Of a DNA stretch of 64,000 nt, positions 5,010 through 60,877 are shown piece after piece (within the stretch, counting starts at the first letter, position 1; the number at the start of each line of letters is the position of its first letter). Under the pieces are notes generated by a model. That model did no database searches. It was given only the letters and a program-made list of their open reading frames with translations, and was not told the origin of the DNA. The position numbers and the translations under genes were made by a program. Source of the DNA: Macrotis lagotis (lineage: Eukaryota > Chordata > Mammalia > Peramelemorphia > Peramelidae); the NCBI RefSeq assembly GCF_037893015.1, contig NC_133662.1, positions 273,375,444 to 273,439,443 of the forward strand, read 5' to 3'.

Positions 5010-6171
5010 TCAAACAGGCACCTCGCTGCTGTCAGTGGCCCTCTGGAAGGAGCCTAGGACTGCGGTACCAGCCCCCCATTCGCTGGGCCGCCGGTACTCA
5101 CCAGGTCGCAGAAAGTACTGCCGGCCCTGGTAGTTGGGCTGCTCAAAGAGGACCCAGTAACCATCCATGACATTACAAGAAAGGACATCCCTCTGGTGGA
5201 AGCGATCATGGACAGATGGACAGTCCTCGGTGAACTCCATCATCTGCCCCAAACAGTTCTCCCTCTCATAAATCCTCATGCGGAAAGAGCCTTCATGCTG
5301 CCAGGGAAGAAAGTGGAGGCCTTGAGCTAGAGGTTGGAGGGAGTGCCAGGGCCACCAGAAATCAAGTCCCCTCCTTTGGGAAGAATCACTCAGAGGGAGT
5401 CGAATGCCCATAGACATGGACAGGGCTTGGTAACTGCCAACATAGGGACCATCCCCCTTCTTCCTGAGACTCTACCCCAGGACAGCAGAGGGACCCTGGT
5501 GAACTCACCCTGGGCACCAAGCGACAGGAGCGAATGGAGTCATTTGTGCCCATCCACTGACGGTAGTCTGAGTAGTCGCCACGCCTCAGGAAGTACTGGG
5601 AGCCTTTATAGCTGGGCTGTTCATACAGGACCCAGGAGCCACTATCCACCCGCACCGAGTTGCAGCGACTGAAGTAAGCCTGCAGGTCGGCACAGTCACC
5701 ACTGCACTCATAGCAGCGGCCTTGGAAATGGCGGTCTTCATAAAAGGTGATCTGGGGAAAAAAGCAGGGCCGGGACCAAGATGGGTGCTGCCGCCATCCC
5801 TGGCCCTGGACCCCCTCCCCAGGTCCTGGAGTCACTCATCAGGATGGAAGCAATGTAAGGAGCCTCTGAACTCTCCCATCCAGAGAGGGAAATGGGGGCC
5901 CTGAGAGATAATGTGACAGCCAGGACAGCCCTGCCTCCTAAGCTTGATCCATTGCTTGGTGTCTGAAGTTCGGGTTGGGTCAGGGAAGTCCCTGAATGGG
6001 CCATTTTCCTGACTGTCCCACGAGACCAGGGTCACCCGACTAGCTCCTGGGCCTCACCTGGAAGACTGGAGCAGAGCTAGGCTATCCCACTTCTCCCCCT
6101 GGGCTAGAAGGCCAGGTCACCCCAGGACTCCCCTCTCCCAATGCCCAGGCCACACTGATTACCTTGCCCAT
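5010..6171 (-). CDS. Gamma-crystallin, three exons, 179 aa
   Basis: Structural beta/gamma-crystallin of the lens fibre-cell cytoplasm. Exon 1 (6163-6171) encodes only MGK, exon 2 (5509-5751, 243 nt, 81 aa) the first Greek-key domain, and exon 3 (5010-5297, 95 aa plus stop) the second. All introns are GT-AG and phase 0. This is the classic gamma layout: a 9-nt first exon, then one exon per domain. Domain 1 runs from ITFYED to SCRLVPR and domain 2 from HEGSF to the end. The four core tryptophans are kept ([26 protein letters not shown]). By eye it is closest to the gammaA-F group, but domain 2 ([16 protein letters not shown]) also recalls gamma-M/N types, and the tail SSEVPV is longer than in gammaD. 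I cannot assign an orthologue, so no symbol is given. The intact frame, promoter and poly(A) signal suggest it is functional. PFKL lies about 4 kb upstream on the same strand. Confidence 0.93.
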
Positions 6172-10142: not shown

Positions 10143-30323
<20,181 letters not shown>

Positions 30324-37899: not shown

Positions 37900-38580
37900 T
37901 AAAAATTATGTGAAACTACTGGGTATATACCCTGAAGAGATGATGAAAAAAAGGTAAAAACATCACTTGTACAAAAATATTCCTAGCAGCGCTATTTGTG
38001 GTGGCAAAGAATTGGAAATCAAGTGAATGTCCTTCAATTGGGGAATGGCTGAACAAACTGTGGTATATGTATGTCATGGAACACTGTTGTTCTATTAGAA
38101 ACCAGGAGGGATGGGAATTCTGGGAAGCCTGGAGGGATTTGCATGAACTGATGCTGAGTGAGAGGAGCAGAACCAGAAAAACACTGTACACCCTAACAGC
38201 AACATGGGAGCGATGATCAACCTTGATGGACTTGTTTGTTCCATCAGTGCAACCATCGGGGACAATTATGGGCTCTCTGTGATGGAGAATACCATCTGTA
38301 TCCAGATAAAGAGCCATGGAGTTTGAACAAAGACCAGGGACTATTACCTTTAATTTAGAAAAAACAAACTGATATCTTATTGTCTGATCTTGCTATCCCT
38401 TATACTTTGTTTCTTCCTTAGGGATATGAGTTCTCTCTCATCACACTCAATTTGGATCAATGTACAACATGAAAACAAAGTAAACACTGACAAATTGCTT
38501 TCTGTGGGGGGGGGGGAGGAGTTAGATTGGGGGAAAAATTGTAAAACTCAAAATAAATAAAATCTTTAATTAAAGAATTT
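37900..38580 (+). mobile_element. L1 3' end with A-rich tail
   Basis: 'ctgggtatataccctgaag', 'tttgtggtggcaaagaattg', 'caattggggaatggctgaac', 'gatgctgagtgagaggagca', 'acagcaacatgggagcgatg' and the tail 'aaataaataaaatctttaat'. Truncated and non-coding. The inverted duplication begins just past its tail. Confidence 0.8.
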
Positions 38581-38590
38581 TATTATAATA

Positions 38591-38993
38591 TATAATGGGA
38601 ATGAATAGGGAGCTCTCAAACCAAAGGGGAGAAAAGGAATCACACTTAAGAATGCTCATGGTGGTGAATAATATTGTCCTGCCTAAAATAAAAGAGACAA
38701 GGAAGAGCTCTCAATCAATAGTCCTTTATTAAAGTATCTGTGGTTCCCTCTAATGAGGCGGAGCTCAGAGCTTCCTCATGGATGATCAACTATGATTGAC
38801 TCAGCTCCTTTCAGCAGTTCAGTGATCAAGGACAATTCTAAAAGACTTCTGATGGAAAATGCTATCCACAGCCAGAGAAAAAACAATGGAGTCTGAATGC
38901 AGAGCAAAACTTACTATTTCACTTTTTTAAACTGTTTCTTTCACATGGTTTTTTTTGTTTGTTAATGAAATCTTTAATAATTAAAAACAATAC
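38591..38993 (+). repeat. Left arm of a 403-bp inverted repeat
   Basis: Reverse complement of 39286-39688, compared base by base here: 402 of 403 match, the one difference being G at 38948 against T. The first ~175 bp are unclassified and the rest is L1 3' UTR-like (from about 38780). The left boundary abuts the L1 tail, and the right end runs directly into a copied zinc-finger segment. Confidence 0.97.
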
Positions 38994-39138
38994 ACACTGG
39001 AGAGAAACCTTATGACTGTACTTACTACATGTGAGAAGACCTCCAGGCATAAATCACATCTTAATATACACCAGAGTATTCACACTGAAAAGATTTTTTA
39101 TGAATGTAAAGATTGTGGGAAGGCTTTCACTAATAAGT
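38993..39138 (+). repeat. 146-bp exact copy of finger-pseudogene DNA
   Basis: Identical at all 146 positions to 40456-40601, same orientation, and sharing one base (38993) with the end of the inverted arm. It carries linker and finger remnants such as the text for CKDCGKAF. Confidence 0.97.
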
Positions 39139-39285
39139 TTATAATAAAAAATACAACAAAGTAGATCATAAATTAAAAATAGAAGACATGAGATAATAAG
39201 AGGTTTGTATCTCAGATAAAGAGCTTATTTCGGTGGTTATGAAGAATTAATATGAATATAGTGACTAAGACAGCAAAACGACCTA

Positions 39286-39688
39286 GTATTGTTTTTAATT
39301 ATTAAAGATTTCATTAACAAACAAAAAAAAACATGTGAAAGAAACAGTTTAAAAAAGTGAAATAGTAAGTTTTGCTCTGCATTCAGACTCCATTGTTTTT
39401 TCTCTGGCTGTGGATAGCATTTTCCATCAGAAGTCTTTTAGAATTGTCCTTGATCACTGAACTGCTGAAAGGAGCTGAGTCAATCATAGTTGATCATCCA
39501 TGAGGAAGCTCTGAGCTCCGCCTCATTAGAGGGAACCACAGATACTTTAATAAAGGACTATTGATTGAGAGCTCTTCCTTGTCTCTTTTATTTTAGGCAG
39601 GACAATATTATTCACCACCATGAGCATTCTTAAGTGTGATTCCTTTTCTCCCCTTTGGTTTGAGAGCTCCCTATTCATTCCCATTATA
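39286..39688 (+). repeat. Right arm of the inverted repeat
   Basis: Partner of 38591-38993. The arms are separated by a 292-bp spacer (38994-39285). Read on the plus strand, this arm is antisense L1 3' UTR followed by unclassified sequence with an AATAAA near 39550. That second part might be an old LTR fragment, but I cannot name a family. Confidence 0.95.
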
Positions 39689-40384
39689 GTCCCCCCTCTC
39701 TTCTCTGGTACCTCTTCATCTGGAGATGATAAAGGGGTCATTATCTCTATTCACTCATCCTCCCTTCCCATTTAGGGAGTTCCCTGTGCATAACTATGCT
39801 CACCAAGCATGCCTGATCAACCCAGAGATGAGAGAGAAATGAGGAGTTGACTTCAGCTCTACTTGTTTCCTTTCACTTCTAGTTACTTCTTGTCCTTATC
39901 TCTTTGTGCATGGGCAGGTTTTCTTTTCTTTTTTTTAAATCATCCCTATAGGTTATTCTGCTTGTTAAAATAGTCATACCTCAGTCCTTATTGGCTCCAA
40001 AACTTGTCAAACCTGGTACAGCATTTTGACAAGAAAAAATGTTGCAGTACTCTGGGCTTGCTAGAAATTGTATGTCATGACGCTGCCCTGAAAGAGAGAA
40101 TGCTTCATCCCTCATTTCATGCTTGCCACTTGGTGCTCCTCTCTCCTGATGAAACAGGTCTCCATGTCTGTCTCATGCATTGTCAGTGCTTGTGGGACAC
40201 CAACAAATTAAGAGTGATACCACTGCTCTGTCACCTCTCTCTCACACAAGCACCTCTATGCTTCTGACTGCTCACTTCTCCTCCTCTGTCCTGAACTGAT
40301 GAGAACCTCTGCCCCAGAAGGTGGGAGCCCTGAGGAATAGGGCATGGTTCCTGTCCTGGCAACCTGGCCTGGAAGGGAGCAAAG
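39689..40384. other. No gene seen; upstream flank of the finger pseudogene
   Basis: The open frame at 40004-40267 (87 codons) has no domain I recognise. If the pseudogene once had a KRAB exon nearby, it is not visible here. Confidence 0.4.
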
Positions 40385-41840
<1,456 letters not shown>

Positions 41841-42504
41841 GAAGTTCAAAGAGTCCCTATTTAGCTCCCATGGAAAAACATATTCCTCCCCTATGCAGAG
41901 TCCTCTTAAGGGGAGAAAGATTAATATTATCTTCCCATGGACCTTCTAGTATGGAGAGAATACAGCAGTTGAGTCAGAGGATACCAAGTGGCTGGTAGTA
42001 TTGGGAGACTCTTGATGTTAACTTATGTGATATATACCTGTTGACTGTGCCAGAAGAAGGTACCATATTTTATGTTGTGTTCCTGATTTTTCTGGCTACT
42101 TCTGCTCATACTTCAATGTAGCCACTGAACCATAAAGATTTATAATCCCATTAAATTTTTAAAAGCCTAGTAAGGCTCTATGGTACATATTGCCACTATG
42201 TGATTTTGGCCCCAATGATCTGAATGTCAAAATGAAGCAATTCAGTACTAGTAAACAACAGGAATAACTATTATACTTTTAAGGTAATCACAGGCCTTGT
42301 GATATTATTAGGGATATATGACCAGAAGAATGGGATTCTCATTATAGTCAAAGGTTATGAACTGGGAGTTTTATTTCCTTTTTTTGGAGATTTTATTTGT
42401 TTTGAGTTTTGCAATGTCCCCTCTAATCTTGCTTCCATTCCCCCCAGCTCCCCACGGAGGGCAGTTTGCCAGTCTTTGCATTGTTTTCATGGTGTGCATT
42501 GATC

Positions 42505-42960
<456 letters not shown>

Positions 42961-53374: not shown

Positions 53375-60877
<7,503 letters not shown>

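Follow-up and report, generated by a model that had tools for sequence, protein, structure and literature searches.

The MMBIR model was built on junctions with 2–5 bp of microhomology (PMC2621351), and in one survey 80% of junctions carried 2–12 bp (PMC8421209). The various replication models are described as indistinguishable by their breakpoints (PMC4056370). Among germline templated insertions in two people, 33 of 103 and 26 of 99 were complex events, with up to five templates per event (PMC8421209), and dispersed duplications comprise 773 of the 13,850 insertions annotated in one human genome (PMC7640490). Among templated sequence insertion polymorphisms (TSIP), a poly(A) together with a TTTT/A cut is typical of class 1 (PMC5110952), and one tripartite LINE chimera flanked by 14-bp repeats has been described (PMC2104539). 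The present report concerns a composite insertion in a window, i.e., the whole 64-kb stretch of DNA analysed, which is part of contig C5 in a genome of 3.66 Gb.

The insert occupies positions 38591–39138 of the window (548 bp) and consists of two fused copies of neighbouring DNA, one of which is inverted (Table 1). The first piece, arm A, is identical to the reverse complement of arm B at 402 of 403 positions, and the second piece is identical to its donor at all 146 positions in direct orientation. Base 38993 is common to both blocks, and the 548 bp are wholly covered with zero leftover bases. These coordinates and identities, the one-base overlap at the joint, and the 292-bp spacer between the arms (the loop of a hairpin) had been given in a preliminary description and were reproduced exactly on recounting. 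The arms differ only by a G/T substitution (38948 against 39331, complemented), which borders a T-run. When mismatches are permitted, the direct copy reaches 38989–39138 (99.33% of 150), and neither donor alignment carries on into the flanks beyond the outer edges of the insert. Both donors are still present in place, and the insert was therefore copied, not moved. Comparison of the window with itself (64 kb, word 14, E ≤ 1e-5) gave 88 self-alignments, in which the other pairs of at least 100 bp were all approximately 87% identical or less. In a genome search with the 548 bp, which scored the 40 best of 3663 candidates and whose repeat counts are consequently lower bounds, the full composite was found at this locus only; the next matches were the two donors and then a place on contig C1 that matches the zinc-finger part at 92%, and the dispersed repeat inside the arm gave matches of 81–88%. 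The frequency control comprised 61 non-window loci (211,297 bp), a small and biased set chosen for repeats common with the window and including several overlapping or identical loci. At thresholds of at least 60 bp and at least 92% identity, the control yielded nine rows in three loci (one 68-bp pair in L029, a repeat pair in L034, and seven overlapping rows of 60–63 bp in L035), and none of its pairs reached 150 bp or 99%. The inverted 142-bp pair in L034 (95.8%) was considered as a second local inverted copy and rejected, because it is a dispersed repeat present in most of the loci compared and in the window.

Table 1. Positions within the window of the insert, its donors, and the adjoining features.
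Feature	Position	Strand	Remark
Old repeat, host context of the target	37915..38577	+	many loci matching at about 90%
Left copy of the 8-bp direct repeat TTATAATA	38583..38590	+	abuts outer left joint
Arm A, derived inverted copy, first insert piece	38591..38993	-	402/403 to reverse complement of 39286-39688
Second insert piece, derived direct copy	38993..39138	+	146/146 to 40456-40601
Right copy of the 8-bp direct repeat TTATAATA	39139..39146	+	abuts outer right joint
Element X, low-copy; right flank of insert, extends into arm B	39148..39323	+	genome matches
Arm B, donor of the inverted piece	39286..39688	+	left edge internal to element X
Donor of the direct piece	40456..40601	+	within decayed C2H2 zinc-finger array

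Information regarding which copy is original has been obtained from paralogues in the same genome. Read on the minus strand, arm B comprises low-copy or single-copy DNA (39688–39619), an old repeat (39618–39499), a fragment that we take to be an L1-like 3′ end (39498–39324), and the start of element X. The non-self matches listed for element X (176 bp) are two, one on contig C4 at 84% and one of 40 bp in arm A, and the former (C4:273757773–273757951) is unbroken through 39285/39286. The array around the donor of the direct piece contains Pfam zf-H2C2_2 and zf-C2H2 (40394–40777), and its zinc-finger reading is split between frames. The C1 paralogue of this donor, locus L029, is unbroken over both 40455/40456 and 40601/40602, with matches at 75 of 80 positions to the left of the donor block, 135 of 146 inside it, and 135 of 146 to the right. 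At the insert, the pieces that are continuous in the paralogues stop and adjoin foreign DNA: the right end of arm A adjoins zinc-finger DNA, whereas its donor runs into sequence common to the C4 locus. The continuity of the paralogues over the donor edges, together with the broken pieces at the insert, argues that 39286–39688 and 40456–40601 are the donors, in line with the polarity assumed previously. The insert appears to be the derived copy and both donors look old, with paralogues backing three of the four donor edges. For the fourth edge (39688/39689), no paralogue was present among the matches listed, and the 38 non-self matches listed for 39500–40000 all end by 39618–39624. The G/T difference was discarded as a weak mark of polarity, with gaps nearby, T as in arm B at 10 of 12 distinct repeat loci aligned around the site, and G as in arm A at 2 of 12. 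Conversion of the zinc-finger donor by the C1 paralogue was likewise rejected (135/146 against 530/605 in the remainder of the block; Fisher p = 0.11). The decayed zinc-finger block as a whole extends over 40376–42940, and its C1 paralogue (C1:36732000–36741500) is 85.6% identical over 40376–41126 and 82% identical over 41105–42940. Elsewhere in the window, a KRAB zinc-finger gene is located at 53378–60040 on the minus strand (Pfam), comprising an open 818-codon C2H2 array (53378–55831) and a KRAB box (59570–60040), and exons of a beta/gamma-crystallin gene and a phosphofructokinase gene are located at 5013–5471 and 14015–14413, also on the minus strand (Pfam).

The old repeat to the left of the insert, presumably an L1-like 3′ end, has an A-rich 3′ tail, and the insert starts 13 bp past this tail; in the 38000–38590 part, 46 of 590 positions (7.8%) depart from the majority sequence of 19 copies. 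With element X to the right, the target is an AT-rich seam between the old tail and X. The insert is bracketed by an 8-bp direct repeat, TTATAATA, which was overlooked previously. A flanking repeat of at least 8 bp was obtained from 96 of 200,000 shuffled flanks, 99 of 200,000 Markov-sampled flanks, and 110 of 294,521 random AT-rich site pairs of the window; a chance origin, at about 4–5 in 10,000, is unlikely. The pair could be a tandem repeat in the tail predating the event, which would look identical. Exact microhomology amounts to 0 bp at the outer left joint, 1 bp (C) at the inner joint, and 0 bp at the outer right joint, and the inner joint reaches 4 of 5 bp when AATAC/AATTC is permitted. 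The inverted donor opens with TATAAT, and this hexamer recurs on either side of the target at a distance of no more than 15 bp; of 5208 random local donor starts, 46 have such a match in the left flank and 15 in both flanks. Because the flanking TATAAT does not line up with the joint itself, its occurrence in both flanks hints at annealing without proving it.

Regarding age, the insert and its donors differ at 1 of 549 sites, i.e., 0.0018 (Poisson 95% range, 0.00005–0.0101). Gene conversion between the arms could make the arms look younger than they are, and because inverted arms can be evened out in this manner, the direct piece was also counted in the estimate; this piece alone has 0 differences in 146 positions, with an upper bound of approximately 2% divergence. 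On these divergences, the insert is far younger than the host repeat (7.8%) or the paralogues (about 7–16% different).

The insert is probably the product of one young templated insertion, made from two nearby templates during the repair of a break or a collapsed fork and leaving 8 bp on both sides. We infer a single event, templates of DNA and not RNA, and a repair or replication setting. Briefly, a break or a collapsed or stalled replication fork would have arisen in the AT-rich seam between the L1-like tail and element X, a template 0.3–1.1 kb downstream would have supplied 403 bp in inverted orientation and another, about 1.5–2 kb downstream, 146 bp in direct orientation, the pieces being joined nearly end to end, and the copied DNA would have been rejoined to the target with TTATAATA on either side. 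The machinery may have been either replication template switching of the MMBIR/FoSTeS type or repair of a staggered break capturing locally copied patches; the two fit equally well, and the sequence does not separate them. Fork switching accounts for the mixed orientation and the near templates, and the serial switching, in mixed orientation and within 2 kb of the target, is that of MMBIR/FoSTeS; however, it predicts joints of 2–5 bp, and the exact joints observed here fall below this microhomology. Patch capture at a staggered break explains the blunt outer joints and the 8-bp duplication. The preliminary description had attributed the insert to template switching at a replication fork, considering near-zero overlap its hallmark. 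The youth of the insertion, its composite, copy-type character, and its origin from two nearby donors are upheld, whereas fork switching is only partly backed, owing to the 0-, 1-, and 0-bp joints and the 8-bp duplication, and the supposed hallmark is to be withdrawn because MMBIR was modelled on junctions of 2–5 bp.

Reverse-transcriptase template jumping is an unlikely alternative source of the insert, in which a LINE enzyme would nick the target and copy two local RNAs in a row, namely a sense RNA from the zinc-finger region and an antisense RNA from arm B, generating a chimeric retrocopy with an 8-bp TSD. End-to-end fusion of transcript copies is reported for LINEs (PMC2104539), and class 1 human templated insertions have duplications of at least 5 bp (PMC5110952), a length that the flanking duplication of the insert exceeds. 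Nevertheless, reading by eye revealed no poly(A) at either end of the insert and, in the boundary sequence, no L1 endonuclease TTTT/A motif at the nick sites in either orientation; with one piece also inverted, the previous dismissal of normal retroposition remains sound. The ATTAAA at 38980, at the end of the arm, was dropped as a poly(A) signal, since no tail follows it. Template jumping would furthermore require one and the same 1.5 kb to give rise to overlapping RNAs of both polarities, sense and antisense, and both donors are located beside the target, whereas retrocopies land anywhere. Less likely again are two separate events, in which an inverted copy of 39286–39688 was later joined at its edge by a direct copy of 40456–40601, or the two were made in reverse order. 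The donors are non-adjacent and differ in orientation, as two events would allow, but the second piece must then have hit the exact edge of the first, both pieces are nearly identical to their donors, and the flanking repeat measures 8 bp when the composite is taken as a unit, as against 1 bp around the arm by itself and 0 bp around the zinc-finger piece by itself; the repeat brackets the composite and neither single piece, which favours one event. An assembly or sequencing artefact, more improbable still, would account for the near-perfect match of the insert to nearby DNA; however, a fold-back would yield one adjacent inverted copy instead of an inverted and a direct piece with an 8-bp duplication, and the arms are separated by one substitution. 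Capture by a DNA transposon has next to no probability: hAT-type elements make 8-bp duplications such as the one flanking the insert, but the insert ends (TATAATGGGA... and ACTTATTAGT...) have no terminal inverted repeats, no transposon sequence remains, and the donors account for the entire insert.

In the predicted RNA fold of 38591–39688, the arms pair along their length (MFE −777.8 kcal/mol, without a shuffle control), as anticipated in the preliminary description, and such a long hairpin follows from the inverted repeat itself. Nothing in the present data supports the putative dsRNA role suggested previously for the arms, and the zinc-finger piece derives from the array with the split reading. 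It is very improbable that a new, near-perfect 403-bp hairpin locus would be transcribed in the germline and yield dsRNA, or small RNAs targeting L1-like tails or zinc-finger sequence; were this so, a small-RNA source would have been born in a single repair event. No function is indicated for the insert. Near-perfect long inverted repeats are unstable structures, and the insert is for this reason a candidate for polymorphism. The insert is well preserved, young, and ordinary in kind, and provides a clean example in which both templates, the copying order, and the 8-bp duplication are readable from one genome, although the case by itself changes no model.

Among the described systems, microhomology-mediated templated insertion (MMB-TI; PMC8421209) resembles the insert in involving copies of nearby DNA that are often inverted, several templates that can be joined, and germline variants. 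The search described for MMB-TI was directed at inverted copies whose templates lay no more than 100 bp away and whose length did not exceed that of a read, whereas the present insert is 548 bp long with templates 0.3–2 kb away, and the exact microhomology at its joints is 0, 1, and 0 bp. FoSTeS, MMBIR, and serial replication slippage (PMC2621351, PMC4056370) are similar in that nearby templates are copied one after another in either orientation; FoSTeS/MMBIR is different in being modelled on 2–5 bp of microhomology, and the 8-bp flanking duplication lies outside the definitions given in these two sources. TSIP, as described in PMC5110952, likewise places a copied patch at a break, with a duplication of at least 5 bp in class 1 and without poly(A) in class 2; by contrast, TSIP donors are distant, and the insert combines the class 1 duplication with the absence of a poly(A) or an L1 site. 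LINE template-jump chimeras (PMC2104539) similarly consist of fused copies of different templates with short terminal direct repeats, although those reported are of separate transcripts, whereas the templates here lie next to the target, one being antisense with respect to the other. Short-range template switches in great apes (PMC7954356) also arise by local inverted copying that produces an inverted repeat, and returns behind the start point are reported; the gold-standard switches in that study, unlike the insert, have a median copied length of 12 bp, a maximum of 128 bp, and a single fragment. The insert is of the same kind as MMB-TI and the great-ape switches, being larger and copied from more distant templates than the limits of those searches themselves allow.
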